DNA from: Antedon mediterranea | Taxonomy: Eukaryota; Echinodermata; Crinoidea; Comatulida; Antedonidae | NCBI RefSeq assembly: GCF_964355755.1 | Contig: NC_092671.1 | Coordinates: forward strand, 10,861,001 to 10,925,000 | Reading direction: 5' to 3' | DNA length: 64,000 nucleotides | Shown here: positions 10,750-54,343 of the stretch, one piece after another | Layout of the letters: every line of letters starts with the position of its first letter | Position numbering within the stretch: position 1 is the first letter of the stretch | Translations under genes and position numbers: made by a program | Notes under the pieces: model-generated | The model's input: only the letters and a program-made list of their open reading frames with translations | What the model was told of the DNA's origin: nothing | Databases searched by the model: none

Positions 10750-11545
10750 GCCTACGGTAGAACCCTACTTTGGAACACCTCAGGGGAAACCTCTATTGAG
10801 ATTCTCTCGTGGACGAACGAGGGGAATCGGGTTTTAACTTACGACAAAACCCTATTCACGTGACACCTCTATTAAGGAGATTCTCTCGTGGACGAACGAG
10901 GGGAATCGTGTTTTAACTTACGACAAAACCCTATTCACGTGACACCTCTATTAAGGAGATTCTCTCGTGGACGAACGAGGGGAATCGTGTTTTAACTTAC
11001 GACAAAACCCTATTCACGTGACACCTCTATTAAGGAGATTCTCTCGTGGACGAACGAGGGGAATCGTGTTTTAACTTACGACAAAACCCTATTCACGTGA
11101 CACCTCTATTAAGGAGATTCTCTCGTGGACGAACGAGGGGAATCGTGTTTTAACTTACGACAAAACCCTATTCACGTGACACCTCTATTAAGGAGATTCT
11201 CTCGTGGACGAACGAGGGGAATCGTGTTTTAACTTACGACAAAACCCTATTCACGTGACACCTCTATTAAGGAGATTCTCTCGTGGACGAACGAGGGGAA
11301 TCGTGTTTTAACTTACGACAAAACCCTATTCACGTGACACCTCTATTAAGGAGATTCTCTCGTGGACGAACGAGGGGAATCGTGTTTTAACTTACGACAA
11401 AACCCTATTCACGTGACACCTCTATTAAGGAGATTCTCTCGTGGACGAACGAGGGGAATCGTGTTTTAACTTACGACAAAACCCTATTCACGTGACATCC
11501 CTATTAAGGGACAGCTTCTTAATAGGGGTTCTACTGTAGATCCGT
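10750..11545. repeat. 79-bp satellite, about nine copies, inside terminal inverted repeats
   Basis: The core ATTCTCTCGTGGACGAACGA recurs at 10801, 10880, 10959, 11038, 11117, 11196, 11275, 11354 and 11433, exactly 79 bp apart and nearly identical. Each unit has the short palindrome CTCGT...ACGAG. The array is bounded by GTAGAACCCTA at the left and the inverted TAGGGGTTCTAC at the right (about 11522-11535). This makes it look like an array grown inside a short DNA transposon. Related ends occur near 17575, 21700 and 62150. Confidence 0.8.
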
Positions 11546-31699: not shown

Positions 31700-31990
31700 G
31701 ATCAAATTAAATATCACAGACGGAGGATGCCCTCTATCGACTTCAAAATATAGGATAGTCCTCATCGACTGAAGTATAGTACCAACTGTTCTTAAACTTT
31801 ATTCGCACACCATCGAAGTTATCGGCAGCTTAGCAGTATAATCACTAGCGAGGGCCGAGTTTGTGTTCGTATTTGGCAAAAACCTAATTAGTTGTCTGTT
31901 TTCAAATTCAATGTATCTGTAGCATCATTTTAAAGATGATTCGCTACATAGGTATTCTTTTTATTCTACACACAGGTAAGATTGCAATGT
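31700..31990 (+). promoter_or_regulatory. Promoter and exon 1 of the lectin receptor, second copy
   Basis: Homologous to 26985-27200, with an extra stretch of about 50 bases (31823-31870). ATG at 31936; donor ACAG|GTAAGA at 31976, phase 1. The conserved block CCTCTATCGACYTCAAAATA lies about 200 bases before the ATG and is a candidate regulatory element because it survives in both copies. Confidence 0.6.
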
Positions 31991-34900
31991 TGTACTTTTT
32001 TAATAGTTTTGATCATAGAGATATTTTATCTCTATGTTTTGATCGACTCGCTGTACTTTATATGCATCATCATAACATTAATAACATAAGTAGTAGTAGT
32101 AGTACATTGAAGTTAGTGAAATGTTAGGTATAGGCCACAGTTAGGTGGCTCAAATCAAGTGTAAAAAGTGCATAGATCGTTTTCTTACTTAACCGGGATT
32201 GTGACTGTAGCATGGTAGAAAACATGCATTTAACCTTAGAAGTTATAGGAATACTATAGGAGGCTATCTATAAAGAAGCATCATTTTAACAGAAAGTGCG
32301 GGTAGGAATTCTTATGTTGAACAAACTAAATTAAAAATGTCAAAGCCTATATAAGCCGATAAGTCCCCAGTAGTAAAGTAAATTGTTGTACAAATTGTTA
32401 TCACAGCAAAGTGTGCGATAAGCACTAAACCCGATCATGTTATCACAATATATAAACAGAAGCAGGGGCGGTACCGTGCCTGGTAGGGTTAAATCGCGCT
32501 AATGATCACATCTTCATATCTGATTAATAATCATTAATCTTTGCTACTTCTTTCAAATTGTATTTGTTTGTTTCACTAAAATAATATCCAAGATTTATCT
32601 CATGCCGTGAAGTATTGAAGTAAAACAAACCGAATAATACGGTAGACTAAATACTTATATAAGCTTAAATTAATTAGGAAACATATGCATTATTTGGAAT
32701 TATTTCCCTTTAAAATGTTTCTATTCTTTTTTAATGTTCTATTTATTATCATTTCTTTTTTTAAGGCTCGCCGAAAACAAGATGTTTTTCTTCATTCTTC
32801 GGGGCATCTGCCTTCAAACTCTAACCTTATATCATTATATTATTGCATTGTATTTTATTATCTTTTATGCCAGAGTCTGTAAATAAATGTTATGAAACTT
32901 GACCACTTGAAACTTGAATAGGGGTGGTGCCCCTTGAAATTAGATGCCTCACTGAACGAGGGTTTACTGGTAACAATCGAAGTTGTGTTAAAATGAATGG
33001 TTATAAATAAGATAGTATTGAAAGTGGCTTACTAGAAATTAAGAGTAATTGATCCAACAAACTGTGAATAAAAAACTAAAAACAAAGGAAATGGTTTTCC
33101 TCACGGTAGACAGAATTTGTTTAATTTGGAATCTAAAGCTCTGTCGACACTATCAAACTAGTGTAATAATCAAAAATTGTGATTTGTCCAAACATGGTAG
33201 TGATATGCCCAAATATGGTAGTGATATGACATCATCATTTCCATGTATGTATGTATGTATGTATGTATGTATGTATGTATTTTTTGTCACATAAATTTTA
33301 TAGTGTAGAGACAGAGCTTAGAGGGAAAAGAAATAATGTAAGAATCAAAGGTATTCTATCATTTAGTTTCACTTCTTTAGAGTTATGCTTATCTAATTTA
33401 TTTCAAAATGTATTTGCCAAGAAAATGAAATGTGAAACTTTACTTAAAATTACTTATATCCTCTGAATAATGTACCCCGCTATAACAATAACAATAAGAA
33501 CAATTACATATTTTAGTAGTATGAATTAGGGTTTGAATTCGATTAATTTTTTCAAAAAAACTTTAAATAAATACTACTAATTATCTCCTCGAAATGATCA
33601 ATAATAACAAATACAATAGAAATATTATATTAGTCTAGGAAAATCGAAATATTATATTAGTCTAGAAAAATCGAAATAAATATTATATTAGTCTAGGAAA
33701 ATCGAAATATTATATTAGTCTAGGAAAATCGAAATATTATATTAGTCTAGAAAAATCGAAATAAATATTATATTAGTCTAGGAAAATCGAAATATTATAT
33801 TAGTCTAGGAAAATCGAAATATTATATTAGTCTAGAAAAATCGAAATATTATATTAGTCTAGGAAAATCGAAATATTATATTAGTCTAGGAAAATCGAAA
33901 TATATTAGTCTAGGAAAATCGAAATATTATATTAGTCTACGAAAATCGAAATATTATATTAGTCTAGGAAAATCGAAATATTATATTAGTCGAGGAAAAT
34001 CGAAATATTATATTAGTCTAGAAGGCTTTTTAAACATAACCAGAAACTATTGAATCAGTTGTTATCACTACATAATTATTGATTGAACTTTCAACAATCT
34101 GGAATGAATGGTACCGGGTTTAGTTGATACCAACTCACCGCTAGGAAGATAACAGTATAAATGATTAACATAGATCTTTAGGTCACAAGAATTTGAGTGG
34201 ACCAAAGATATTAAAATATATGTATATTTGTTTACGCTGATTATATAAGGTACAGACTGTTACCTTTTAAAACATATGTATGTATAGTTGTGCCGTCTAA
34301 GAAATAAATAAACAATATATAACCAGGGAAGAGTGAATTCTTCCCTGATATAACAATACTCTATAAAATAAACTAAAATTAAAAAACTAAAAATTATGTT
34401 CAAACTGTCTCTGGGGAAGGACTTCGAACAATAATGTAATTAACAACTTTCTATCATACATCTGCAACACGTCGACTGGTTGTCCCTTTGTGGTACTGAA
34501 ACTGGGATAAGGCATTATAACAAAAGATTTGTTAGATATTTTTTTTTTCTTTTTCCCCCTTATATTTATTTTAGGCAAGTCAAGATAGTTTATGAGCACT
34601 GTAATTTTCATTTATATTAGACAATAAATGAATCTGTATCTGTATCTGAACAATGGCATGGTCATTTCGGCTCACTTTCAACGAAGATGTAATAATACAT
34701 AAATGGTTTTTATAATTCCTATCATAGAATTTTAAATGAAAAACATTGACTTTGAAAATATTTCTTGATTTTTTTTTTTTTAGTAAACAGTCAAAGGTGT
34801 CCAAGCGGATGGCTAAGCTATGGGGATTCATGTTATTTTGTAAGGACAGATGCAAAGAATTGGTACGAATCACGATTAGCATGTGAATCCGATCAAGGAG

Positions 34901-37900
34901 ATCTAGCCGTAATTAAGACAGCTGATGTAAATGTAAGTTCACACTGAGATTCTTAGATAATCACGATTAGCATGTGCATTTGAGTAAGGAGATCTAGCCA
35001 TAATTAAGACAGCTGATGTAGGCCTAAATGTTAGTTCACACTGAGATTCTTAGATAATCACGATTAACATGTGAATTCGACAAAGGAGATCTAGCCGTGA
35101 TTAACACAGCTGACGTAAATGTAAGTTCACACTGAGATTCTTTGAAAATAACGATTAGCATGAGAGCAATAAAGGGAACTAACCAATAAGACAGCTATAC
35201 TTCGATTATTGGATTATTAGATAATTCAGATGTGCAAGACCCACACTAAAATATAAAGAGTCACTTCCACAGAACCAACAAAGGCGCGCGAATTACAATT
35301 GTTAGGTAAGATACCATTCGTAATATCCTAAACGAACTAAAAAACAGATTATGGAGGGGCTATTCATGAATGCCCAATATTAATCATTGTAAGGTTTAAA
35401 TAAATAGTCGGTGTTTTTATCATTTTTACTACCTTAAATTGACATAGGCCTAGTCTTTTAACCTTGTTTGTTTTCTTTCTCTATCAAGACATTTTTAAAT
35501 GGTTTGATCAAGGATACTGGTACGTCCCACTGGATAGGGCTACATGATACAAGTACTGAAGGAAACTTTGAATGGGTTGATGGTACAGCTCTAGATCCCA
35601 ATAACGCGTAAGTAAAATAGGCTTACTAACACATCTCGTATTATCACACAACGACAATATAATTGGCATATTGAAATATTAGAGAGTGTTGTTTTGTGTG
35701 TGTAACCGTAATTTTGAAAGATTAGTATAGTAGCATAGCATATTTAAATAAACCCTATTCAAAAATGGTTCCTATTCATATGATAACCAATGCGCATATG
35801 TACGTAACTTTTTACCGCCAAATCAGACAATGGAATTCTGGGGAACCAAATGACTACGGAAGCAATGAAGATTGCTCAGAAATCCGCACTGACGGCAGAT
35901 GGAATGATCTGGCGTGTACAAATAATCGACGAATGATATGTGAAAGAGCCGCGGGTAAGGGCATCTGCTGAAAGACTGGCGAAAACTAAATCAAAACATT
36001 TCTAACCATTTAAACCATCGCTTAACACCGGTTATGATGTTTATTGAATGTTTTCCACCGTGTAATCATTTACTTGTCATCTTGTCGATTGTATTTTTTT
36101 TAATGTCATGTAAGCTTGAAAATATACTGACGTAGCTAACGTCTAAAATCAATTAACTATTAACGCGAAAGACAAATAAATAAATTTATAAATCAATTAT
36201 ATAGCACCGATATCCATAATGGCGATTTTGAAGATGTTGACAATCAAAGATACACAATTGAACATTATAAGGAGAGTTGTTCTACTTACGAAATAATATT
36301 AAATTACAGAATTAATATGAATAAACTAAACACTTTGACTTAGGTTATGGGCACCTGGAAGACCGGATTCCTTAAATGGAAACGAGGATTGCACAGTGAT
36401 GTTCACTAACGGACTATGGAATGACCAATTTTGTACTTACTCCAAGAGGTTTTTATGTGAAAGGCCCAGTGGTAACAACCGTTCCCTCTTCACATAATGC
36501 ACACATAATAACACGTGCACTTAACATGAATTGAAATTGTATAACGACATTCGCTCCTCCTTTGACAAAATTGTCACCACATAATTGTTTATTCATTCAC
36601 AATTTGGTAACTGCACACTAGGAAACCATGGCAACAAAACCAAACAAAGTGGGAACCGCTTGCTTCTGATAAAATAACATTAGGCCTACTACTATACTAT
36701 TATATAAAAAAACATAAATATGTACATGAGAAATCATAATAAATACCAATTTTAAATTTAAAATTAGTATTATTATCAACTGTGTAATTGATAATCGGAA
36801 AACAAACAGGAAGTAAATTGTATTAATCAATCAATCAATAAATCGAGTTTAGGTCCTTCATTCCTCGGTTCATGTATTTACCTCATACATTTTACCATTC
36901 GCCTTTTAGTACATTTTGTATTGTATTTTGCTTGTTATGCCTCCAAGTCAATATTCCATGTTGCTCATTTGCTTACAGTATTTCCAATGTAATATCGGCA
37001 TCATTATAACGTTTGAGTTAAAGTTAACGTTTAACATTCGGTCAAATTCATACCATGTTCGCCTAGTTTAATGTTTATTCTTATATAGATTCAATTAACA
37101 TCAACCGCCTAAGTAAGCAATATAAAATACACATCAAATAAACATGCAGTGAATTAACCATCTAATGAATCGATTCATATTTAGATATTCCTATAAATTG
37201 TGATGAGAGTGAACGATGGTTTGATGGCGCTGGACAATGCTACAAATTCATGGACCGTGATGCATCATGGGACGATTCTGTCAATTACTGTACATCGGTT
37301 GACGCTGAAATATTAAGTATTAAGTCGCAAGATGAGCAAAATATAGCAACATACATTGTGGGAGTAAAAAGTGCTACTGTTTGGATCGGATTGTCTGATA
37401 AAGTAAGTAGCCTACTGCTGGTAAGATATTGAGGTAACTCCTAGGAAACATGAGATGAAGTTATAGGCCAACACAAATCAAACTTGCTGCAGTTTACCAA
37501 ACATTTTGTACTCGAATGCTGGAGTAAATATAGGATATAAGTATGTACTTGATCGATTCTAACTTGACCGGTCCAGATCATTATAGTTCACACTTTGTTT
37601 TGTTAGAATGGTGGGTCATCAGGTATGTACCAATGGAGCAACGGTGATCCATACTCTTTAACAAACGACTACAACAACTGGGCTCCAAGCCAACCAGACA
37701 ACAAGTAAGCTTCTGTTACGTTAAAGTTAAATTCTTGATCGTATTGGTAATATAGTCAGCATATTTTTTTAACTTCAGTATCTGACTTAACGAATTCGAT
37801 AATTCTGACCGAAATCGCCACAAAATAAACGCAATCGGAGTATAATGAAAAATGTATCAATTTATTGTTGCATGACTTTATAATTATAATCATTGTTGTG

Positions 37901-40900
37901 TGTGATGCCTATAGGTTCTACACACAAGGAGGAAATTGTATTGAAATACTAAACAGTGCCAACAACGGACAATGGAATACAGCTCCTTGTACTAATCTTG
38001 CGAAATCTATTTGTCGGAAAGCAGAAGGTAACACATTAGTAAATTAGAATATAAACTATTTTTAATATATGAAACCCTCTATACATACATTAAACACTAA
38101 ATCAGAACTTACAATCTGAAACCCATCCAGCTAGCTAGTTATGTTAGAAGTATGTGTGTTTTTCCTAGGTACCTGCGCACCAGGATGGAGGTTGCATAAA
38201 GGATATTGTTATCAGTTTAATGATAACAACGCACAAACGTGGACTGATGCAAAACACTACTGCGAAGCTCAAGGTGCTTATCTAACATCAATCCTAAGGT
38301 AAATATGACAAATATGATATTTTATGTACTATTTAAAAATAAAATTTAATACACAAAATTAGAGTACAGAATAGGATCCAATCTGTCTGTCAGAGATTAT
38401 GAATATTGACATTTTTGTTTTGTAAAATCATACAATTAGTTATCAACAAATGTAAATTTAACTATTTCAAAAATGTCCAACATTAATCGCACTTTTATGT
38501 GGAACGTAAACCACAATGAATTCTTTGCTGACCTTTAATGTTTTTGTTTTTTTGTTATTTTAGCAACACAGAAAGTGATTTCATCCAAAAACAGTTTGAA
38601 GACTTGGCAACAGTTGGAATAACCGATTACTGGATTGGAATTTCAGGTAAAACCTTGTGCTTTGTTATGGGACGTTGAGATCTGGTATATTAAATTCACA
38701 ATGTGCATTGAAATGGACTGTCCAATAAAAGTCTATTCTTGTTTCAGTTTTTAAACACACGTTGAAACTGTCTTTATAATACTGATTATGTTTCTTTCAG
38801 ATTATGCAAGCGACGGTATCTTTGCATGGACAGAAGGTACATCAACCGCAGGTTACAACAACTGGAATCCAAACATGCCAAAGAATATGCCAAACCAACC
38901 AGACTGTGGAAAAGTTTTTGTCGGTAAGTAATAATGTATACTATATATTTTGGAAATGAACTTTAACGAAAACTGAGAAACTGTTGAAGCTAGCAGTGCA
39001 TATGTGCGCTGAGGCTATTAAATCTCCCACTCAATTAGCTGTGTAGTGACGCTCTAAATGCCAGCTCAGACAGAATCGTACGACGAGGCCCGAAAAAAAA
39101 ACGTCTTAACTCGTCGATACTGTCTGAGTTGAATCCCGACAAGACGAGTCGTCTTGAGATAGTTTTTAGGTCGTCGAGAGAACGCTACCCGAGTTGGCTA
39201 AGGCTATACCACTTCCTAAGCAGAACAAAATTAACATAACATAAAACGGAAGTAGATTAAGATGAACATTGTTTATAATATTATTAAAAGAATCCGCTGT
39301 ATCAAAGTGATATAATAATAAGTTTGTCTTGAGCGAAGAAAGATTTTGAAAATTCTTTGTTTTATTAACTTTAGAGGATTCTACAGGAAAATGGGATTCT
39401 GACAACTGCTTTCTTTTACTTGCTTCTGTTTGCAAAGCAAAAGTCGGTAAGTACTGTATAATTTAACATTTAGTTTCCAAGTTACACTCATATAAACTTA
39501 TACAAGACAACAACTGATTATGTAATTTTTCAATCAAGTTATTAGTAAATTTTCTTTTACAGGAACAAATATCAAAACAGTCTCTCCTATTGTTGGTGAG
39601 TACAATTAATGTATATACTGTATGTTTAGTCTTACTAAGACTAATCTCTATGTTGCTATGTAAACGTACAATATACATCTACCAAGATGATGCTAGGCCT
39701 AACATGATGTGAACATACATTTTGTTTCCAGGCGTCGGTTCCTGTCCTCCTGGCTGGATTCTAAATGGTGACGGTTGTTACAAGGTTACCAGTGACACTG
39801 ACTTAACATTTGACGCTGCATCTCAGGCTTGTCAGTCTATCCAAGGAGAACTTGCAAGCATCCACGATGCAGATACACAATCTTTTCTATCACGTGAGTA
39901 TGTTCGGCCTCTGTACATCTGCTGGAACCGCCCACATTAATGATAAATCTCTATCTCTATAGTAAAGGGCACATCTAAAATGTGACTATATTCACCATTG
40001 ATGACTGTGGAGTATTGTGATGATTCTTCCACTAGAAGGTGAAGCGGATGTACATGACTGTAGGGTGTTCAACAAATCCTTTCGTTTTAGACACGAAATA
40101 TACTTTACAATGAATCCTTTACAACCTTTAGATCCAATCCGTCCTTGTACTACCTGATTAAGTTATTCAAGATTCAATGGAGTTTGCTTCTGTTCCTTCC
40201 TACTATTGCTCTACCTGATACAGTACCATTTTTGTTTCACTTTAGTTCAAACGCAAATTGCAAGGAAATACTTATGGGTTGGTCTACATGACACCACCAA
40301 TGAAGGAAAATTCGAATGGCTTGATGGAACACCTGTAAGTTTAACTTATACATCTTTTGTTTAGGTGTAAAATAATATCCAGTATGCCTAATAGGTCCAA
40401 CCAGGAATTCGTCTACTAGTTAAATAAAAACGTAACTCTAAACAAACCAATGTCTTTTTTGCAGTATGACTTCTTTAACTGGGCACCAGGTGAACCCAAT
40501 GATTATGGTTCTGGAGAAGACTGTGTACATCTTGCTCCTTGGGAGAACTCTATGGGAGAGTGGAACGATCTGGCCTGTACAGGAACAGCAGGATATATAT
40601 GTCAAATTGCCAAAAGTGAGAAGGAATTTATCTATATAATCCTTGGATCATTGCGTAGTTCGCTGCTGACCCCACGTACAGAACTGTACTAGATTATGCC
40701 TAATATTATGGATTTGTTATACTAAAATACATTTATTATTTTCAGCATGTGAGACAATGACAAGTGGGGATACAGATGACCAGTATTACTACCGCTATCA
40801 TGACTCGCCTCTTTACGAATCCCGTGTTGATTTCGATGTCAAAGCATCAAATGACGTACACATAGGGTTGTCGTCTTCGCCCGCAGACGCGAGTGAAATG

Positions 40901-43900
40901 TACGAGGTTGTCATTGGAGGTTGGGGTAACCAGAACTCCGCTATCAGACGTTGTATTCAGTGTTCAAATGAGGTGTATGTATCAACTCCAAATATTCTGA
41001 ATCAAAATGAGTTCCGTGGATTTTGGATCACTTGGGACGATAATGGAAAGATCAGTGTTGGTAAAGCAGGGCAGGCGTCATTCATGGAATGGACTGATCC
41101 TAACCCTCTACGCATTGCTTATGTTGGATACACAACGGGCTGGCAGAGTTCTGGAGAATTCAGGTTTTGTGACTTAAGTAAGTGAACATTTTAACACAAT
41201 AATGATAAACATTGTCCAGTTTTAACAAGCGAATTTGAACTTGAAACATAGTACACTTGGAATATGCAGAAAATACGTAAAGAAGAATATTATTCAAATA
41301 GTGTTCTGTTTGTGAAATACAATGTGTAATAATTTTGACTTTTTATTGATCTTGTGTGATTGTTTTTATGAATTATAGCCGTATCCATCATCATGATTAG
41401 CATCAAATCCGCATTAAAAATCATAACTTATTTGTCAATTAACTTAATCTATATCTCTTTTACAGCTTCTGGGGGAAGTGTACCACCTCCACCAATGCCA
41501 ACTCGTAAGTCCCAAAACTGATTATTAATATTCCCCATTTTAAAAACAATATGTAATATATTAATATGTTATTATAATGTTTACGTATCAAACTATATCT
41601 TAATATGCATGACGTGATTACACACTACACACACCTATATTTTGAAGAGAAGAACAAAATAAAAAATAGTATTAAACACATTTCACGGCGGCTATGATCA
41701 GTTAAATCAAAACTTCAATCCTTTTTTCTATCAATCGTAAATAATAAAGTTATTATTATTATTAACTAATATCGTTTGTTTGTTTTATAGCTGTATTCAG
41801 TCAACGTTGTGGTCAAAATTGGGAGTATGACCCTATTAGCGGAAATTGTTACTTGTTCCGTCCAAAGGATTTCAAGAAATGGACTGACGCTGAAACGACG
41901 TGTAATAATGAAGGAGGATCATTGATAAGTATAACAAGTTTGACGGAGCAAAGCTACATCAATGGTATGCACGTAACATATTCTTGGATCAGGAAAGAGT
42001 TAGTAGTAGGTCTAAAGAGTTATTAGTAGGTCGACCTCAGGATGTGACTTACATGTATAGATAAAAAGTAAAATAACTATAGACATCATGACATCACCAA
42101 TACATTGCTTTAAATCTAATTGGTACTATTATTTAGCTCGAATTGTGTACATAAATGAAGGCGGTTTATGGACTGGGGGTAATGACAAAACCCAGGAAGG
42201 TGGATGGAAGTGGTCAGATGGAAGTCCATTTGCGTACCTGAACTGGAACGCAGGTAGATCAATTTAACTTACAATATTATTATTTTTCATTACCGTATAC
42301 TTTTTGTCAAGCTTATCTTATATTATAAATATCTGCTCGTTCGCATCGCCAGTACCGTACTGTTCAATGGTGATCCGAGATACAAAGACAGTTCATCAGA
42401 TAACTTTAACCCGGTTCGGAGTTGAAGATAGCTAAGAATCCTAAATATCCCTCAATGCAACACAAAACTGAGATAGCCAGGTAATGAATTTATATTCAGT
42501 AATTTGAATAATTTATTAATTAATTAATTACTAATTTGTTTACGATTATTCATATCTTAATTTCAGGTGAACCAAATAACGCAGGAACATTAGGGGAGCA
42601 TTGTTTAGAATTATACACAAACACTGGAGTATGGAATGACCAAGCATGTGGCGATACACTGGGATATATTTGCAAGAAAAATGGTAAATTTATTACAAAT
42701 ATATGTATTCTAAAATGCTGTAAAATATATCTTTCGGCTACGTTAGAAGTTGATATGTATTATGATCATATCACAAAAACAACTGACGAAACAAAAACTT
42801 GTAAATTAAAAGAGACGTCAGAAACCCACTGGGAACTCAAGTTCACACGTCGGCTTGGAGTAGGACAATGTATTAGAAGTACATACAATTTAGTATAAAT
42901 TACATAACCTAGAAGTGGCGTCTATGAGCAATAGATAAAGCGCAGGTATTCTTGAATATTTGCTTGCAGTATAAAAATACGATAAAATCGCTATTCCGGT
43001 GGAAAATAATACAAATACCTTATACATTCTCTGTATATATGAACCTACTGACCTACTGTATAACAAGTATTTAATACAGCCAGACACGTATCTAGTTGAA
43101 TTGCGATAGTCAGTTAGACTCTATGAAGTGACTGCTTAAAGCTGTTTTCTGGCTTATGTTGTTTTATCCAGGTAAGATAAAGACAAGAAATATACTAATA
43201 TTTCTGAAAACTGAGTATGTTCTCAAGAGCTGTTAGATTGTAATATTAATTATGCTTTCATGAAACTATTTTCTAAAAAAAACATCAAACATTATATTTC
43301 AGGTTATATAGTATCGCATTTTAGCAGTTATCCAAACGCAGCCATTGAAGGGTTCGACAACATTCATCTTACCAACGTTTACCCAGAGGATTGTGCCCAA
43401 AGATGTATTGCAGAGACCTCATTTACTTGCAGATCTTTCGATTATTACAAAAACAGCCAAGAATGCGACTTAAGTGATAAAGATAAAGACATGGTTGGCG
43501 GTTTAAAGACAACGTACGATGGGTCTCCATTTGATCATTACGAAAGAGGTAGGCAACGACATGATTTTTCTCATTGATGCATCCTACACCATGCGCCCCA
43601 ATATTTGAGTTGGGTGGGGGCGTTATTTAACGTTATATATAAAGACAAATAACCGCAGTTTATATTATAAATTTATAATCAATCAACAATCAATCAAAAT
43701 ATTCACAGGAGCCTGCCACTTAATTAAGATTTAGTAGTTGTGATTAATCTTTGTAAATTCGTACAATTCGTAAAATCGTTGTTTCAAAGGAGTATACCAT
43801 ATAATTCATTTATTTTTTACCTTACACCTACACATAATATCATATTTATAATATACAAATACACATGGTTGAATTAATAATCAAAACATGTTTTATTTAG

Positions 43901-46900
43901 TTATGGATGCTACCACCGAGATGCCAGCAACAACACCACCCCCTAATTACCGTTGCCGTGATGGTTGGAATTCCTACGCTAGCTATTGTTACTACCTTTC
44001 AAGTACTGATGGAACATGGTCTGAAGCTCGTGATAACTGCCGAGGAATGGGAGGCGATCTTGCATCAATACACAATGACAACGAAAATAACTACATCAAT
44101 TCTCTGCAGACTACATGTAATTATATTTATTACTTTTTTTTGGGTATAATTTAACACAACCAAACAAGATGGAAATATTAAAACTATATTACTTTGGGTC
44201 TACATTTAAATATCATGGCCTAGATTGTGCCTACTACCAAATAATAATATCAAATATCACTCTAATTACGAAAACACTAGAAAAATAAGGGAATGTATAA
44301 ATATATAGGACTGGGACAAACTTAGTCAATGGATGTCAATTAGATGACACAATGCTTATCATGACGAAGATTATAATCATGCTGACATTCCAATATTACA
44401 GCGTCTAGTGGTAATATCTGGATTGGTTTAAACGACTTGACATACCAGATGAGTTTTACCTGGAGTGATGGCTCAGACACTGATTACACAATATGGAACA
44501 CAAATGAACCTAACAATCACCAAGGAAGTTCTGAAGACTGTGTTGAAATGTACACCAATGTATGTCAATAATGTATTACAAAAGTCATACCACTTAACAT
44601 TAGCAAGCAATTGTATCGGGACGATAGATGAAGAACTAAACCAATCCAACCAGTTCCGATAAAGAACAAATTGAGCTAAACATATCTATAAATTACCGTC
44701 TCCTTCCGTCTAAAGGCCAATTTACACAGAGGAGCGGTAACGGTAATACAAAATACACCGTATGCTATTCCTTATGACCATTTACACACAACGCTGAGTG
44801 GTTTCCGCTCAGGATAGATACAGATTATACGCGGGACAAGCTACGCGGTTTTCCGCTTACTGTTACGGCTCGTCTGTGTAAATTGACCTTTACTGTACCG
44901 AAACGATCTTAGTTTATTTACCATATGACAATAATCCCATCCGATGTTACTGAACCCTGTTCATTGTTATTTTAGCATAGGCCTACAGTAAAAACAGAAC
45001 ACACAACTAATATGTTTATTTCTTCATCAGAGAGCATGGAATGACAATGACTGTGCCAGCAGAAGAAAGTTCATTTGCAAAAGAAAAAAGGAGAATCTGC
45101 CTCCAACACAATTTCCTCCCACACCATCTGGATGTGATCAGGTAAGACAATAATGATAATGACGTAGGAGAACATTAACCGTAGTTTAAAAATCATAAAT
45201 TCTGAAAGTACTAACCTATCATATGATGGCAATAAAATCAACGTTTCTCTATGGCGAGTCTAATTATGTATTTTCAGGGTTGGATCGGTTATGACTATTC
45301 GTGTTACTTGTTTGTAAGTACATCGCCAGTAAACGCAGATTCGGCAAAGCAGAGTTGCCAGAGCTTGGGCGGACATCTTGTGTCAATCAATGACAGGTAA
45401 GAATATTTAATTTTATTCAAGCCAATTTTTTGTATAAAACTTATATTTTAATGCATTGTTTTAAAACCATGAGTATAATATGTATATTTGTGTGCTACAA
45501 ATTGCAATACTTAGAATACAATTTCTAAGTATTTAGATTCATTCATTCTTATTAATGGTGTCAACTTTATGTAAGAAGTAATGAAAAACAAAAAGAAAAA
45601 AAAGAGAGGAAATAATAAAGGTGGGTTGTTCCCACGAAAGAAAAAATATTCGCCCTGTAAGATTTAGTGTAGTGTGTGTGACTATAAAACGTGTTATTTA
45701 CTAATCAAATGGCAAGGAATCAACATCATTGATAATAACATTAATGTACAATTTGTTGGTAACCCTTGCAAATGTGATGTCATTAAAATTAGGTTTGAGC
45801 AATCGTTTGTGTCAAGTCAGCTTGGTCTTGCAAGTGGGCAGTATTACTGGTGTGGACTTCAAAAACAAGACGATGGGTCATACACATGGACTGATGGTTC
45901 ATCGGTAGATTATACTAACTGGAACAAAGGGCAACCAGGTATGATAATAATTATTTATGTAACGCTTTATTTAAAATGGCTAGTGTGGATTGTTTAAAAA
46001 AAGAAAGATACCAAAAGTTGGAGACAAAAACAAATTCGAAAGTATATAATGTAATTTTCTCCCTTTGCTTTTTCAACGTTATTTTGTAGATGACAGAGAA
46101 GGCAAATGCGTAGCAGTTTCATCCGGAAAATCTGCGGGGCTATGGGCAGACTCGGCTTGCGATTCACAGTACAACTACATATGTGAAAAACTCCGTTCTG
46201 GTTACACAGACAGACCCATAGTTACCTATGACCCGACCGATCCAAGTAGTTCAGGATGTGCTAATGGATGGATTGGATACGGAGGTAACTGTTTTATGGT
46301 AAGGTTTTATAATTTTAATGGTATTTGATTTTTTCTGTCACACTGAATCATCGACAGGTCTACACCAACTAACGAGGATTTGTATCTAACAAACATTATT
46401 TTATTGCAGATAAACGAAGCGAGAATAACATCACAATTGAAAACATGGTCAGATGCCTCCGCATCCTGTCGTTCACAAGGAGGTTACCTTGCCAGCTTCC
46501 ATTCTAACGACGAAGAATCCTTTTTAAAACAAGTGGCTAAAGTCTCGTAAGCAATGTGGCATTATTATATGACTTTCTTTTTGATTAACTCGCTTAATTA
46601 ATAAAAACAAGAATTTAACTTTGGCCCATTTAACACCTTATTTTACAGAAACTGAAGTTGGCTAACATTGCGAAAAATCAAACGTAATGTTTTGTACTAT
46701 ATCTTACGCTTTGTTTATTCTAAACTTAGATATACTAGACTTAAATACAGTTTAAATCAATGTTTACTAATCAGGTGACTTACCTTAATTCCATGACGTT
46801 CAGTCTTGTTATGTGTACATGATCAATTAATAGTATATTTCCGTATTGTCAGTGTATCGCATTCTCTTCATCAAAATAATTCCAGAACAATATAACAATA

Positions 46901-49900
46901 AAAAACAGTATATATATCCAAATAGTACCTTGAGTGTAGGCCTAGTCCAAATAAATCCTGGTAGTAAGGGTGCATGTTATCCGATCCGGCCTACTGCCCG
47001 CTATCATCGTTGGTGTGACTGGTGGTAGTAAGAAAAGGGAACTCTGGTAGGGCCTAAGATACCGTGTGCCTTAGTTTAACTGCTGAATTAAACAGCATCT
47101 ATACATAGTTACTGTGTATATATTACAGATTTTCCGTAAAATTACTGACACCAGTTAATTAAATAGACGACCAGCAATTGTCTTGATTCGCTATATTTTA
47201 CTCCGAAAATTGTTGACGAAAATGTATATAACTCGTTCATGGTTTACGCATGCGCCGGTGTGATCCTTCCGGGTTAATTGCGCGATTTTTAACCGTCTGT
47301 AACGGGTCGAGACTAAATATTATTTTCTATTTATACTTTCTTTCTCAGAGACACTGCTACAGGTTATTGGATAGGGCTAACTGATCAGACCAAAGAAAAT
47401 GGTAAGAATAAGTATTAATGAGTGCAAAAATGAAAATATTATATATATATATATATATATATTAGGATAAGGATGAACATGATTGTCATATTGGGATTAA
47501 CAATTGATGAGTGATAGATACATATGGTCTTGATAATTGTGATGAGGATGAAAATGATGATGATCATAAGTAAGGCTATTATATTACTGTGATGACAAAG
47601 AAATTGATTGATTGATTGATTAATTGATTTTAAACTCTGTCTACACTATCAAACTTAACTTTATGTGACAAAAAAAAAGTGATATACCAATATATGGACA
47701 CGGTGGTCATATCACTACAAATTTGGGCACACTTTTTCCCCACTCAACCAGGGTACTGTATGTTTTGTTGTTCGGTGTCTTGAAATTATTTACTTCTGTT
47801 ATAAATATTTAGGATTTACTTGGACTGATTCCACGCCAGTTGACTATACAAACTGGGAAAATGGAGAGCCCAACAATGTGAACGAAGAGGACTGTGTGGA
47901 GATGTTCTTTTCAGCACGCAATTGGAACGACATTGGCTGTGACCGAACTAGACATTGGGTTTGCAAACTTCCAAAGGGTGTGTGATTCTCTCTTGATAAT
48001 ATAAAACACTAATATGCAAAAACTAAAAATGGTATATATATTAAAGAAGGCTACTGTAATTTATTTCGGGCTGACAACGTTAAACAAATTGTATAAATAA
48101 TTGAATTTATGAATATCAATCCCTTAACTTGTTTGTTTTTTATTTATATTTATTTTTGTGTTTTGCAGGCGTACGACCAATCACGGTTCTTCCACCGATG
48201 ACCCCAACGCCATGTAAGTACTGTACAGTTGGTATTATTACTAAATATACATTTTTAGGCTTTCTTTGTTCCAGGAATTCTTAATTCCAGACTCTTCTCT
48301 TCATCTTTATTCCATCCATCTCTAGCTACGCATCATAATCCTATTATATGTATCATATAACGGATCGTTATTTGTTTTAAGACCCATTGTGTCCTGGTAA
48401 TGAAGGATGGATCCAGTTTGAGAACAATTGCTATTTCTTCAGCCAAGCCTCTGGTAGCGGACGCTTGTCATGGCAAGCCGCGGACGACTACTGCCATGTA
48501 CAAAACGGAAGACTTGTTTCAATCCATACTGCTCCAGAAATGCAGTTCCTTAATGATAACGTAATTATAGTTAACTTACATTAAATCTACCTTATAATTT
48601 ACTAAATTATCAATATAAAAACCTAAGTAATTTAATAATAATAAATATATATTTGGGTCCAAACAAAGTGTCCAACCGTAGTTGTTATAAAGTGGGGTTA
48701 AACTAAATAGTTATAAAAATAATAATAGTTTTGAAATCTATGATTAAAATTAAGTTAAGTGAAACAAATGGCCATGACTAAAACATATTTTTTTTATTGA
48801 ATGTGTAGACTGACAAAACAATTAGCTCCTACTGGATTGGCCTCAGAGAATATGAAGTGAAAGGCATATACTCGTAAGTTTATGAGTTGTAAACTTCAAT
48901 AATGTAAATTAAATATGTAATGTGCATACTAGTATTATTTCCTGTATCGTTACTCACGTTACACAACATATAAACATCGATGTATAATAAGAAGTGTGTA
49001 CAATAGCGTGGCATAATTAAACATGTTTGTTAATGTATTTTGACGCCATCAACCAAACCTCTCGCCAATAATATGCAGAATGGGAAACCAATACTTTCTA
49101 AACCAAGTCGCAAGGCTGTATTGGCTCGTCAGAGAAAAGTCCTGGAACGGTGACAGGATTTGAACATGGCATTGACATACAAATACCAATCAATTGACAT
49201 CCTAGCCCTCTCCTAAAATGTTTGTTAATTAGTATACAAATAATGAATGTTTATGAGTGCAATGGTACAAATAATGGCACGAGGTGAATGATGAAAGGTT
49301 ATATCAACGAGGCAAAGCCGAGTTGATATAACCTTTCATCATTCACCAAGTGCCATTATTTGTACCATTACACGAATACAAAACATTCATTATTTGTTTT
49401 ATATAACATCTAGACGTTTTTTTTTCGTACACAAAAATGTTTCAAAAAGTACTATTTAACGATCGTTGAATAGTGCGTACTATTGCACGCCATGTGACCC
49501 ACATTCGTCCAATCAAATGACAGGAATTTATATAGGTGTTATATAAAAGGAGATGTGTCATGCCAAGGCGATCTAACAACAAGATTCTGAGCTTCGGAGA
49601 TTAAAGGATTTATCTGTGGCCGTGACACGATCAGTCCAACGTCCCTTAACAGACATCGTGCATCGTGTGAATACATAGTACAGACCTGTTGGCATTTATC
49701 GCAGCCAGACATAACCAAATCACACATTTGTTCTTATACAGCTGGTCCGACTCCACTCCATTTGATTATGTCAACTGGGCAACTGGTGAACCAAACGATT
49801 TCAACGGAGAAGAACAGTGTGCCGAACTCTACACGTCAAGTAAATTATTTTATGTATTATCTCTTATATAATATTACATATTTTCCATAAATATTTATCT

Positions 49901-52900
49901 TGGACCTTGGTTTGCAATATTCAGATTACCAGTATTAAACTTTAAAAATGTAACTTTAAAAAAATTTACGTCACATCCACTTTGGCAATATTACGTGTTG
50001 AATTAATATAACCCCTTTTGTATTTACTTATAGTTGGTTCCTGGAATGATCTCAACTGCGGTGACAAAATCCCATTTATCTGCAAGAAGCCTTATGGCAG
50101 CGTAGTAACTAACCCACCACCGATAACAGCACTGCCTCAAGGCAACTGCCCTTCTGGCTGGATGGAGTTCAATAAACGATGTTACCAGTTCCACGGCTCT
50201 GTTGAATCTGATCGTTTTGGTTGGATGGATGCAAGAGATAAATGTCGCGGATTGGGAGGTGACCTTGTCACCATCCACGACAATCGTGTCAATGGTAAGC
50301 GTGACAAATACGGGAATATTTATACGCTGAATAATTGACGTCACGTTATATTCAACGCTTAGTCTTTTTAGAGATGTAGGAGGATATGATCACCTACGTA
50401 ATTTGTCAATTTTAGACTCTGCCTCCCAAAATGTACTTAAAACAAAATAAATACAAAATCATATCTTCTTTTATTATTAGCCTACCAGGTCTTGACCTGT
50501 ACCTGTCTATATTGTATCTGTATTTATTTGTTATTTTTCCGGGCATCTGCCTTCATTCTCTGACCTAATTATCATTATATATCTGCACTGTATGTTTCTT
50601 TTCTTTTTTTGTCAGAGTTTGTAAATAAATGTTATGAGATGAAAAATTAAAATGAAAAACGACAGTTTTCCACACCTAATGCATAACGATATTATTTAAC
50701 CACCTACAACTATTTTATATTGTAGCATTCCTAACTACTAAGTTGAAAGGACTAGATTACCGTATGTGGGTTGGCCTCAGCGATCTGACCAACAACAAAC
50801 AGTTTCGATGGACGGACGGATCAAGTGTAGATTACACCAACTGGGCTAGCGGAGAACCTAACGAAGCTGGTGGCGGGGTTAGTAGCATTCTATGTAACTT
50901 ATTATACTCTCGTTTGCGAGAACTCGTTTGAAAGAGACGACTGTCGCAATTGCACGAGTTAACGGTACAAAGTATTGGTATTTTATTCACAAAAACAAAA
51001 TAAATTTCAAACACATGAATTGAGTGTATGTAGTAACTAACACTATACTTCGTTATAGTGCGGTGGTAGTCGAAAAGGGAGATTACCTAAACTGAAAACT
51101 AACATTAATACAATATAGTAAACTAATTATATTTAACTGTGTTTAATCATTTAGGAAGATTGTGTTGAACTAATTGGTAGCGAGTACCAGGCAGGTCTAT
51201 GGAATGATAATGCTTGTGATAAAAAGAACGGATACATCTGCCAAGATGGATTCTGTAAGTTATTGTTACTTTTTTCTGGCCCTTTAATCAGCATACGTTC
51301 TTATATGAGTATAGCCTTTTTACAATAACAATAAAATGTCTCTATTTAATATACATTGATATAAAAATGTTTAAATTAACTCTTCTTCTAGCATTATCTG
51401 CCCCAGAGCCTCCCGTTACCAGCTCGTCTTGTCGCACCGGATATCGTCAGTATTACGATAGCTGTTTTAAATTCGTGGACGGTAGTTTCGATTTTAGCAA
51501 AGCTGTTACTGCTTGTACAAATCTGGGAGGTGGAGCGGCTTTAGCAAACATTATTGATGTTTACGAAGAAGCTTTTGTTGAGCAGGTTATTGGAGATAAT
51601 GGTGGAGCAGCAACTTGGATTGGAATGGTCGATAACAAGGTAGAGATAATCACATTTCAATACAATTACAGTAGGCCCTATGCTATTTTAAAGCGTATTT
51701 AAAAACGTCTGTTTTTTTATGTAGAAATGTACTGTACGTTTATCTTACATATATGGAAGTTAACTTGCTTACTTTAAGTGAGTGATACTTGGCCATCTTT
51801 AATTGAAATTAGGAGGCAAATAGTATTACTCGTATATGCTGCCTCCTGTCATGGTTTTTATGTGTGAGTCATGTTCGTTTGGAAGAGTTGGGTTTGAAAC
51901 AAAGTAATAAGCTAATGAATTATATGTGTTTCTTACATCAATATATAGATTGCTGGCGAGTACCAATGGGTGAATGGATGGCCAGTTTGGTACACTAAGT
52001 GGGGCCGGGATGAACCCAGTTTTGGGTCCGGTGAAGGCTGTGTGATGATTGATGAGACTGGTTACTGGGACGATACTGTTTGTACTGACAACCATCCAGC
52101 ACTGTGCAAGTACTCGTTAGGTAAGAGGACACATTTTGAAAATAATAACAAACAGTTTACAATAAAGATGACAAGATTGATTTTGCCCAGTAGGTCTACT
52201 ACTACATAGGTACACGACAAATTACGTGCATACGTAAGCATATAACTGTTTATTGAGGTTACGAATTCCCACGCGTGGCCACAAAGTACCACGCGTGGCC
52301 ACGAAGTACCACGCGTAGCCACGAAGTAGCCACGAAGCTAGAACGTGGGTAACGTTGCAGTAGTTTTTAGCTGTACTGTATGCGTATATGATAATATGAA
52401 TTAAAAAACTGAATTAATGTCTAAACGCTTCGGAAGGAAGAAATACACATTAAGTGATAATGGATAATATATCAATAACTTGTAATAAGACTCTGTTTAT
52501 GTAGATGTCTTGTGAACAGGATTGGCACCTTTAAGAAGGATAGTGTATGAATTCGCTTATGGTTATCCTTGGCAATTTGCCTGAATATAGACAAAACAAT
52601 TATCGTTACTTATAATCAATGTTATTTTTAGCACCCAAGCCAACAAATCCTCCAGACCTTCCTGGAACTTGTCCAGTCGACTGGGAAGCATTTGGAAGTT
52701 ATTGTTACTTCTTCGAAATACAACGTTTGTCTACCATATCATGGCCTGAAGCCCAGTTCAATTGTGCAAAGATTGGCGCACATCTGGCTAGTATTCACAC
52801 TAAGGCAGACAATGACTTCATATCAGCTAAAGCAAACAGTGCTGAATTAGATATATGGACCGGTCTATACAGAACTGACAGTGGTTAGTAATTCATTTGT

Positions 52901-54343
52901 TCAATTATGACAGTGCCTTAGTTTCGTCATGGATTTATAAAATTATATACCTCCATGGTTTTGGTAATGGATAGAGAAGTCTGGTAATGAAGTTAAGATT
53001 CACATCGGTTAAAGTGGTAGGTAGGTAGTAGGCCTAAATAGAACGGTTTTGCATGCATAAATGAAAAAAAAAACTGCATCTTCAATTTTAAAAAACGCTT
53101 ATTTGCGAAGAGATTGCCCTAATTGAGCAGTTCGTTAATAATGAATGTTAAACGATCGTTTAATAGTGCGTACTATTGCACGTCATGTGACCCACAATCG
53201 TTCAATCAAATGGCAGGAATTTATTTAGGTGTTATAATATAAATAACATAGCACTAATAGCACTTTACTTTACATTTTCACACCCCAATCATTGCAGGTG
53301 GATTTGCATGGTCGGATAACAGTCCGGTTGATTACACTAATTGGAATGAAGGAGAGCCTAGTCTTATACATAACGGTGAACATGAAAACTGCGTTGAAGT
53401 TCTACGACCATTAGGCAAATGGAACGACATTGAATGTATGAATAGTCAGGGATATGTCTGCAGAATTGACAAGAGTAAGTGATCACTATGGGCCTACTTA
53501 AGTACTTATCTCTGTTTCAAATGGCCAGAATACACACGTATTATTATGTATTCAAGGCTTAATATAATAAAATATTTTGAACAAATCCTAATATATTATT
53601 TACTGTATGTGCATTCCAACGTAACACAATGCATTATTTATTAGCACCACTAACTGGAATGACAACTAAACCAATCATTCGAAAAACTACAAAAAGTAAT
53701 GGAACACCACCACCTGTTGGACGAACGACGAAAAAGACAACAACACGACCAACTCCACCGAGACAGCAAACAACTCAAAGATCCATACCAAAAACAACAA
53801 AAAATAATGATGGTGGTAATGAAAATCAAACAAAAGGTAATAAAAGGGGTCAGTCATATTTGAGAAATTCGACTAGCTTTTTATGTAAAAAATGCTCAAA
53901 AGATATAAAATGCAGGGCGCCCCCTATATCGTCACACATTTCTGGTTTCCTAATTTACAAGTCGTAACCCAATGTTGCAGAGCGCCCTCTATATCGTCAC
54001 ACAATTTCGGTTTCAAACTACACAAAATAGGTATAACTTAATGACCATTTGTTTTACCGAATAATATTATGATTATGAGCTATATAGTAAATAATTATTA
54101 TAAATATATTACTAATTTTAATTCACAGAACCAATGAATGCTGGCGTCATTGCTGCTCTCTGCGTTGGAGCACTGGCTGCTATTTTACTTGTAATCATCA
54201 TAACCTACTGTGTAGCTGGCCGTTCATCTAAGAAATCATTAGACCCAACCGGAATAGACAGTGTTGGATTTGATAACGCCCTATATGTTGCCGGATCAAA
54301 TAAAGTACAAGTAGAAAAGAAAGAAAATGATTACGACGCTTAA
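31936..54343 (+). CDS. Mannose-receptor-like protein: 12 CTLDs, FA-methyltransferase-type domain, PAN, TM
   Basis: 43 exons used per transcript (44 including an alternative pair) sum to 6303 nt, 2100 residues, with every junction in phase. Exon 1 (31936-31975) is a signal peptide start, [13 protein letters not shown]. Then: CTLD1-4, a Methyltransf_FA-type domain (about 570-713), CTLD5, a PAN/apple domain (about 863-944), CTLD6-12, a Thr/Pro/Lys-rich stalk (1966-2029), a membrane segment (about 2034-2056) and a 44-residue tail. The tail has FDNALY (2076-2081), the FxNxxY internalisation signal of the mannose receptor family. Seven CTLDs carry EPN (mannose-type), three QPD (galactose-type) and two EPS, so several sugars may be bound in a Ca-dependent way. 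Likely an endocytic or pattern-recognition receptor (inference). It differs from vertebrate MRC1, which has a ricin B domain, FNII and eight CTLDs. Exons are listed in the segment entries. AATAAA at 54811. Confidence 0.88.
32760..32925 (+). mobile_element. LINE 3' end fragment
   Basis: Ends CAGAGTCTGTAAATAAATGT TATGAAACTTGA and contains GGGGCATCTGCCTTCA. The same end occurs at 50525-50660, so this is a dispersed retroelement 3' terminus, not a gene. Confidence 0.55.
33133..33321. mobile_element. MITE, CTCTGTCTACACT family, copy 3, with ATGT expansion
   Basis: In intron 1 of the lectin receptor. It starts AAAGCTCTGTCGACACTATC and ends GTAGAGACAGAGCTTA. The middle is replaced by about ten ATGT units (33243-33281), a microsatellite born inside the element. 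Confidence 0.75.
33622..34022. repeat. 27-bp minisatellite, about 15 copies
   Basis: Unit ATTATATTAGTCTAGGAAAA + TCGAAAT, with sporadic 31-bp (extra AAAT) and shortened variants. In intron 1 of the lectin receptor. No ORF runs through it. Confidence 0.85.
34784..35954 (+). other. CTLD1 of the lectin receptor, default form (exons 2, 3, 4A)
   Basis: Exons 34784-34932, 35489-35607 and 35827-35954. Typical long-form start [14 protein letters not shown], then WIGLHD, EPN in [12 protein letters not shown] (mannose-type), WND and a closing MICER. Exon 4A is 128 nt, enters in phase 2 and leaves in phase 1. An alternative last exon follows at 36344. Confidence 0.85.
34871..35150. repeat. Triplicated exon-intron junction of exon 2
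   Basis: The last part of exon 2 with its donor and the first intron bases is repeated three times from CACGATTAGCATGTG (34871, 34962, 35059; spacing 91 and 97). In the second copy the donor is GTTAGT, in the third it is intact GTAAGT. Without acceptors of their own, copies 2 and 3 can act only as alternative donors. Confidence 0.8.
36344..36471 (+). CDS. Exon 4B: alternative last exon of CTLD1
   Basis: Acceptor TTAG before 36344, donor GTAACA at 36472. Length 128 nt, entry phase 2 and exit phase 1, all the same as exon 4A. It encodes [16 protein letters not shown], then LWNDQFC and FLCER, homologous to exon 4A but with RPD in place of EPN. Splicing 4A to 4B shifts the frame to a stop within about ten codons, so a transcript can use only one. 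Read as a mutually exclusive exon of the receptor gene 31936-54343. Confidence 0.75.
37185..38027 (+). other. CTLD2 of the lectin receptor
   Basis: Exons 37185-37402, 37607-37704, 37915-38027. Cys at the start ([18 protein letters not shown]), VWIGLSD, QPD in [11 protein letters not shown] (galactose-type), WNT in place of WND, SICRK at the end. The WNT change would alter one Ca ligand. Confidence 0.8.
38169..39446 (+). other. CTLD3 of the lectin receptor
   Basis: Exons 38169-38298, 38564-38646, 38801-38923, 39375-39446; a four-exon [26 protein letters not shown], then an insert rich in Asn/Met/Pro ([14 protein letters not shown]) with QPD, and WDSDNC in place of WND. Sugar binding is less certain than in CTLD1. 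Confidence 0.75.
39563..40615 (+). other. Linker and CTLD4 of the lectin receptor
   Basis: Linker exon 39563-39595 (11 codons), then 39732-39893, 40246-40334, 40465-40615. [34 protein letters not shown] (EPN), EWNDLAC, YICQ. All canonical Ca-site residues are present. Confidence 0.85.
40746..41177 (+). other. Methyltransf_FA-type domain of the lectin receptor
   Basis: A single 432-nt exon, residues about 570-713. Features seen: [59 protein letters not shown] and [13 protein letters not shown]. This matches the family named after farnesoic acid O-methyltransferase (Pfam Methyltransf_FA), found in many invertebrate extracellular proteins; no methyltransferase activity is implied. Its place between lectin domains suggests a binding role (inference). 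Confidence 0.75.
41466..42683 (+). other. Pro-rich linker and CTLD5 of the lectin receptor
   Basis: Linker exon 41466-41504 ([11 protein letters not shown]), then 41791-41964, 42137-42253, 42567-42683. [21 protein letters not shown] (in place of WIGL), EPN in [25 protein letters not shown]. Confidence 0.8.
43303..43548 (+). other. PAN/apple domain of the lectin receptor
   Basis: One 246-nt exon, residues about 863-944. Typical apple features: [38 protein letters not shown] and PFDHYER, with the expected cysteines. PAN domains bind proteins or sugars. Confidence 0.85.
43901..45093 (+). other. CTLD6 of the lectin receptor
   Basis: Exons 43901-44116 (opens with a Thr/Pro linker [10 protein letters not shown]), 44402-44559 and the first part of 45031-45141. 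[25 protein letters not shown] in [26 protein letters not shown]. Confidence 0.85.
44712..44891. mobile_element. MITE with AAAGGCCAATTTACACAG ends
   Basis: About 180 bp in the intron between exons 24 and 25 of the lectin receptor. It begins AAAGGCCAATTTACACAGAG and ends with the inverse CTGTGTAAATTGACCTTT; richer in GC inside. No ORF; only one copy seen here. Confidence 0.75.
45094..46200 (+). other. CTLD7 of the lectin receptor
   Basis: End of exon 45031-45141, then 45278-45396, 45793-45938 and the first half of 46090-46298. [21 protein letters not shown] (an extra Cys in place of the Ile of WIGL), QPD in KGQPDDREGKC, LWADSAC, YICEK. Confidence 0.8.
47431..47462. repeat. TA microsatellite
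   Basis: An (AT) run in the intron between exons 30 and 31 of the lectin receptor; a GATT run follows at 47608-47630. Confidence 0.8.
47630..47742. mobile_element. MITE, CTCTGTCTACACT family, copy 4, 3' truncated
   Basis: Starts TAAACTCTGTCTACACTATC with CAAATTTGGGCACAC inside; the right inverted end is gone. Confidence 0.65.
48169..50100 (+). other. Linker and CTLD9 of the lectin receptor
   Basis: Linker exon 48169-48213 (VLPPMTPTP), then 48382-48560, 48809-48873, 49742-49839 and the start of 50034-50294. [27 protein letters not shown] in [24 protein letters not shown]. The intron 48874-49741 holds a palindromic element. Confidence 0.8.
49255..49545. mobile_element. Long-hairpin element and flanking repeat
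   Basis: 49268-49372 is a near-perfect palindrome: AATGGTACAAATAATGGCAC, then GAGGTGAATGATGAAAGGTTATA, a centre AACGAGGCAAAGCCGAGTT, and the inverse arm. Its centre and arm words recur near 30915-30970 and 31470-31560. The following stretch GAATAGTGCGTACTATTGCA to GGTGTTATATAA (49465-49548) recurs at 53158-53240. Probably one fold-back transposon family. Confidence 0.6.
50101..51251 (+). other. CTLD10 of the lectin receptor
   Basis: Rest of 50034-50294 (after a Pro/Thr linker), then 50726-50877 and 51155-51254. [25 protein letters not shown] in [13 protein letters not shown] split across an intron, LWNDNAC, YICQ. The donor at 50878 is GTTAGT. Confidence 0.8.
50525..50665 (+). mobile_element. 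LINE 3' end fragment, second copy
   Basis: GGGCATCTGCCTTCATTCTC ... GTCAGAGTTTGTAAATAAAT, matching 32760-32925. In an intron of the lectin receptor. Confidence 0.55.
51392..52120 (+). other. CTLD11 of the lectin receptor
   Basis: Exons 51392-51639 and 51949-52120. [26 protein letters not shown] in place of EPN, YWDDTVC, ALCKY. Loss of the Asn of EPN makes sugar binding doubtful. Confidence 0.8.
52262..52342. repeat. Short GC-rich tandem repeat
   Basis: About four imperfect units of CCACGCGTGGCCACGAAGTA in the intron before CTLD12; GC-rich against the AT-rich surroundings. Confidence 0.7.
52632..53474 (+). other. CTLD12 of the lectin receptor
   Basis: Exons 52632-52883 and 53298-53474. Opens with a [12 protein letters not shown] linker; [35 protein letters not shown] (EPS), KWNDIEC, YVCR. 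The donor at 52884 is GTTAGT. Confidence 0.8.
53645..54343 (+). other. Stalk, membrane segment and tail of the lectin receptor
   Basis: Exon 53645-53836 encodes a Thr/Pro/Lys-rich stalk suited to O-glycosylation. Exon 54129-54343 encodes [20 protein letters not shown] as the membrane segment and a tail starting GRSSKK, with FDNALY (FxNxxY). Between them, 53912-54030 is a tandem pair of about 65 bp containing GCGCCCYCTATATCGTCACA. Confidence 0.85.

Follow-up and report, generated by a model that had tools for sequence, protein, structure and literature searches.

The mannose receptor family, which includes MRC1, MRC2, DEC-205, PLA2R and the yolk-sac IgY receptor, consists of large type I proteins with many tandem CTLDs. 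The receptor gene described here is predicted to encode a protein of the same kind, as a signal peptide, many CTLDs, a single transmembrane segment and a short tail are all found in the gene model. In addition, the best match of its first domain, CTLD1, among full-length solved chains is to the CTLDs of the mannose receptor family. Unlike members of that family, the predicted protein has 12 CTLDs together with Methyltransf_FA and PAN domains, and neither the ricin-type cysteine-rich domain nor the fibronectin II domain of the family was detected in a Pfam scan of the gene model.

Tandem-duplicated mutually exclusive exons are known from Dscam1, the muscle myosin heavy chain and a set of human genes (PMC5740500); they are homologous internal exons that lie side by side and agree in length and phase. 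Two exons of the receptor gene, designated 4A and 4B, are arranged likewise, and as in the known sets their joint use shifts the reading frame. They differ from those sets in consisting of two copies only, in encoding part of a C-type lectin domain and in the lack of detectable docking/selector pairing, and their exclusivity is a prediction from DNA. In Dscam, the swapping of homologous exons by splicing diversifies binding. A search of the open-access literature gave no case in which such splicing acts on the Ca/sugar site of a C-type lectin domain.

The segment encoded by 4B resembles two further systems. RPD occurs at the EPN position of the CTLD, as in 4B, in the clam lectins SPL-1 and SPL-2 (RPD/KPD), for which the text of the source reports functional EPN and WND to be absent, but its table lists WND (PMC12842671). 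The SPL lectins are small secreted chains, whereas 4B retains WND and the EDC Glu and forms part of a large membrane receptor. The best solved-structure match of 4B is the CTLD of CD23, the low-affinity IgE receptor (WAPGEPTS...EDC..M...WND.FC), a likeness at the sequence level only, and CD23 has Glu where 4B has Arg.

The receptor gene and exons 4A and 4B

The gene model was obtained for the window, the whole 64-kb stretch of DNA analysed, by exon chaining with dynamic programming, using codon usage and splice matrices. The predicted receptor gene spans 22 kb on the plus strand, from the start codon at 31936 to the end at 54343, and includes ~41 exons encoding ~2,000 residues. Exon 1 (31936..31975) contains the start codon and signal peptide and is phase-compatible with exon 2 (34784..34932), which encodes the N-terminal part of CTLD1 and matches Lectin_C. 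Exon 3 (35489..35607) encodes the middle of CTLD1 (WIGLHD...) and ends in phase 2 (GC|gtaagt) at an intron position found also in the paralogues, and exon 5 (37185..37402), the common downstream exon, includes the start of CTLD2. The remaining predicted extracellular exons (37607..53836) encode CTLD2-12, the Methyltransf_FA and PAN domains and a Thr-rich stalk. The last exon (54129..54343) most likely encodes the transmembrane helix and a short cytoplasmic tail; its acceptor at 54129 was favoured by eye over that chosen by the model at 54216.

Pfam analysis of the gene model identified 12 Lectin_C stretches, a PAN domain (43387-43548) and a Methyltransf_FA (FAMeT, farnesoic acid O-methyltransferase) domain (40746-41177), the latter inserted between CTLD4 and CTLD5. 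CTLD1 is thus one of 12 such domains, and among the others EPN is present in six, EPS in two and QPD in two.

Several repeats were observed in and around the gene. At 34868-35162, a tandem repeat (period ~91 nt, 3.2 copies) comprises the 3' end of exon 2, its donor and the start of intron 2, and places additional copies of the exon 2 end and donor within intron 2. As read-through of exon 2 stops immediately, splicing from the repeated donors would break the frame. Intron 1 includes a long minisatellite with a 27-nt unit (33615-34021), and two more lie at 10798-11509 (79-nt unit) and 62362-63372 (46-nt unit). A 48-nt tandem repeat present in 13 copies at 61389-62079 is open on both strands (~208 aa) and on the minus strand seems to extend a coding exon. 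The receptor gene is flanked upstream by a protein-kinase-like gene (29356-30307, plus strand) and downstream by a gene for a RING-finger protein (56382-57953, minus strand).

Exon 4A (35827..35954) encodes the C-terminal part of CTLD1 with a predicted complete mannose-type Ca site 2 (EPN, the Glu of EDC, and WND), and was selected by the exon-chaining model where the two exons compete. Exon 4B (36344..36471), also on the plus strand, would encode an alternative C-terminal part, in which RPD replaces EPN while EDC and WND are kept. Both exons are 128 nt long, enter in phase 2 and leave in phase 1, at the coordinates and exactly as proposed in the initial annotation, and both have AG/GT borders. 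The motifs that it had placed at the Ca/sugar site, GEPNDYG in 4A and GRPDSLNG in 4B, are likewise present, each followed by NEDC and WND. Its suggestion that the two exons encode homologous ends of one lectin domain is borne out by 43% identity over 42 residues and a tblastn E value of ~1e-10, far beyond chance. At the DNA level, 4A and 4B are only 55% identical, and the genome contains no other close match to 4B; hence, an assembly or haplotype duplication was ruled out as the source of the pair. No third copy of exon 4 was found in the introns flanking 4A and 4B.

Conceptual splicing in the order 3-4A-5 or 3-4B-5 gives a single open frame in each case. When both exons are included (3-4A-4B-5), a stop is reached ~11 residues inside 4B, which confirms the early stop expected from joint use, and when both are skipped (3-5) a stop occurs within 7 residues. 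The pair therefore combines similar length, splice-site type and phase (128/128 nt, GT-AG, 2 to 1) and homology of the encoded parts with non-productive joint inclusion and joint skipping, features that fit published criteria for the prediction of mutually exclusive exons (PMC3228551).

Origin of the pair and constraint on exon 4B

CTLDs are abundant in the genome (354 Mb in 18 contigs), where the family has 155 reported matches, and ~115 CTLD C-terminal exons were located genome-wide. Among these ~115 hits, a second tandem pair of C-exons without an N or middle exon between them was not found elsewhere; the examined loci and close pairs were checked directly, and the remainder were judged by hit order only. 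Another exception to the usual C-exon spacing is an array of repeats inside an exon (C11:52.7-53.4 kb; L014:691-1361). In this unusual run of partial lectin ends, tandem units of ~66-130 nt repeat a C-terminal part of the CTLD (WND ... ICE), mostly in one open frame.

Two paralogous genes are present on the same contig at a distance of 5 Mb (C2:5.71-5.74 Mb), and CTLD1 of each has the three-exon layout seen in the receptor gene. Each has a single exon 4, whose motif is EPN in one gene and QPD in the second, so that in these tandem paralogues the specificity motif of CTLD1 has changed via gene duplication. In 4A, 4B and both paralogues, the C-exon of CTLD1 follows a phase-2 intron and starts four bases ahead of the Trp codon. 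In other multi-CTLD genes, the sampled C-exons start two bases ahead of this codon or further upstream. Given the common intron position and the single exon 4 of the paralogues, the simplest origin of the pair would be a tandem exon duplication inside the receptor gene, or an older duplication lost from both paralogues. Derivation of 4B from an exon of another CTLD gene is not supported because its intron position is that of CTLD1. In a tree of the 42 residues, 4B is on a long branch with no supported grouping with 4A, and its topology favours none of these origins.

Exons 4A and 4B differ at 79% of synonymous sites, which are saturated, and at 37% of nonsynonymous sites. All six columns that are invariant across 18 CTLD C-exons of the genome (W, P, C, D, C, C) are kept in 4B, and the spliced CTLD1 scores 97.4 bits against Pfam Lectin_C with 4A and 90.9 bits with 4B (cut-off 22.6). 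In a neutral simulation with the full divergence assigned to 4B, the six invariant residues were kept in none of 20,000 runs; with half of the divergence on 4B, the residues, frame and splice dinucleotides were kept in 0.15% of runs. Exon 4B has therefore been constrained during most of its life, and as judged by the site differences and the drift simulation, its interpretation as a neutral pseudoexon was rejected for most of its history.

Splicing of exons 4A and 4B

The structure of the locus suggests, with moderate confidence, that 4A and 4B are tandem-duplicated exons spliced one at a time in a 12-CTLD receptor. The exon for the calcium- and sugar-binding C-terminal part of CTLD1 would have been duplicated in tandem within the gene, and the two copies would now be alternatives, with a single choice made per transcript. 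Transcripts that use or skip both exons would be frameshifted and removed by nonsense-mediated decay. The earlier statement that only one of the exons can be used is well supported by length, phase, homology, frame, shared intron position and the constraint on 4B, but the weak splice sites of 4B count against it.

The intron between 4A and 4B is 389 nt, and both exons are of the GT-AG type. An intron of this length would not cause a steric block between the exons, and neither a steric block nor U12 incompatibility is applicable as the exclusion mechanism. Docking/selector RNA pairing in the introns did not exceed that in shuffled sequence, and among branch-point proximity, U2/U12 mismatch and competing pairing, no cis feature that would enforce exclusion besides the frame was found. 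With no cis mechanism found, exclusion would rest on frame and nonsense-mediated decay, together with additional regulators. Mutually exclusive exons that depend on the frame only form an established group, and a cis mechanism is not universal (PMC5740500).

Splice sites were scored with matrices built from the receptor gene's own introns. The donor of 4B (GTG|gtaaca) is weak, with a score of 4.34 that is higher than only one of 40 gene donors and is equalled by ~10% of decoy GTs, and its acceptor exceeds only six of 40 gene acceptors. Exon 4A has a strong donor, but its acceptor exceeds only three of 40. Weak splice sites are frequent in regulated exons and also in dying exons.

The weakness of both 4B splice sites would suit an exon that was long functional and is now fading, such that 4B would be a remnant or a cryptic exon in rare use, with 4A as the sole working one. 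The long branch of 4B, the single exon 4 in both paralogues and the absence of a Ca ligand that is common elsewhere point the same way; RPD was found in one of ~57 readable C-exon motifs at the loci examined, where a few exons were counted twice at overlaps. Nevertheless, this explanation is unlikely, as the frame, AG/GT borders, three Cys, Trp, Pro and Asp of 4B are all intact, the simulation excludes neutral drift over the observed divergence, and the whole spliced 4B domain retains its high Lectin_C score. The very weak donor could also indicate an alternative terminal exon, from which read-through would produce a short secreted lectin with the signal peptide, CTLD1 with RPD, and a tail GNNRSLFT. 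Read-through of 4B indeed stops after 8 extra codons (36495-36497), and AATAAA is found at 36738 and 36837 in the intron that follows. However, AATAAA occurs at ~2.3 per kb throughout the introns of the gene, so its occurrence after 4B is expected by chance, and 4A likewise has a stop shortly after its donor. Moreover, 4B retains the exact length and phase for joining exon 5, and a role as a terminal exon is considered improbable.

The calcium- and sugar-binding site of CTLD1

A different alternative, which concerns ligands and is a sub-case overlapping the mutually exclusive reading, is that the gene makes two Ca-dependent receptors, mannose-type with 4A and galactose-type with 4B. The 4A half of this proposal agrees with a textbook EPN site. 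In an alignment with surfactant protein D and mannose-binding protein (MBP), exon 4A corresponds to both residue by residue across EPN, EDC and WND, and is thus predicted to hold all five Ca site-2 ligands, at positions that we take, for both exons, to be those of MBP. EPN, the Glu before DC, WND and the conserved Cys of a mannose-type (EPN) domain are all present, and the choice of 4A would give a canonical Ca-dependent mannose-type site. In 4B, Arg replaces Glu, but the tripeptide keeps its Asp, and the EDC Glu and WND are also retained, which leaves four of five site-2 positions intact; PD resembles the last two letters of QPD. Yet 4B has Arg-Pro-Asp instead of the Gln-Pro-Asp of a galactose-type domain at site 2. 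RPD is not known to be a galactose motif, and Arg is unable to supply the Glu/Gln calcium ligand of this site. Sugar binding by the clam lectin SPL-1, which has RPD, is independent of calcium and of that motif, and RPD/KPD chains bind N-acetyl sugars without calcium and outside it (PMC12842671). More generally, motif-to-sugar rules are unreliable and break down for many invertebrate lectins (PMC12842671, PMC5379193). Hence, a mannose-to-galactose change is not what RPD predicts, and such a pair of mannose-type and galactose-type Ca-dependent receptors is very improbable.

The two specificities proposed in the initial annotation are supported in part: the exons differ at the Ca/sugar site and 4A is predicted to be mannose-type, but RPD, in which Arg takes the place of the Ca-ligand Glu, does not point to galactose. 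Under mutually exclusive splicing, the choice of 4B would keep the fold, disulphides, EDC Glu and WND, with Arg at the Glu position. Because Arg replaces a calcium-coordinating Glu, lost or changed Ca-dependent binding would be at least as likely as a switch of specificity, and the 4B form would most likely have lost or altered Ca-dependent ligand binding in CTLD1. The swap would alter the CTLD1 site, which is perhaps calcium-independent or silent in the 4B form.

By such splicing, one gene would therefore probably yield two receptors with different CTLD1 pockets; the splicing of 4A and 4B, its regulation and the change of ligand are inferred here from sequence. A more tentative possibility is that the gene encodes an innate immune lectin receptor whose outermost domain alternates, through mutually exclusive splicing, between a Ca-dependent mannose-type site and an Arg-bearing one, in an on/off or dual-ligand manner. 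In that case, the second site, with Arg at a Ca-ligand position, would bind something else or nothing. If true, an invertebrate-like lectin receptor could alter its ligand binding through regulation and not through gene duplication, and the EPN and QPD single-exon paralogues together with the 4A/4B pair would show both routes within one family.
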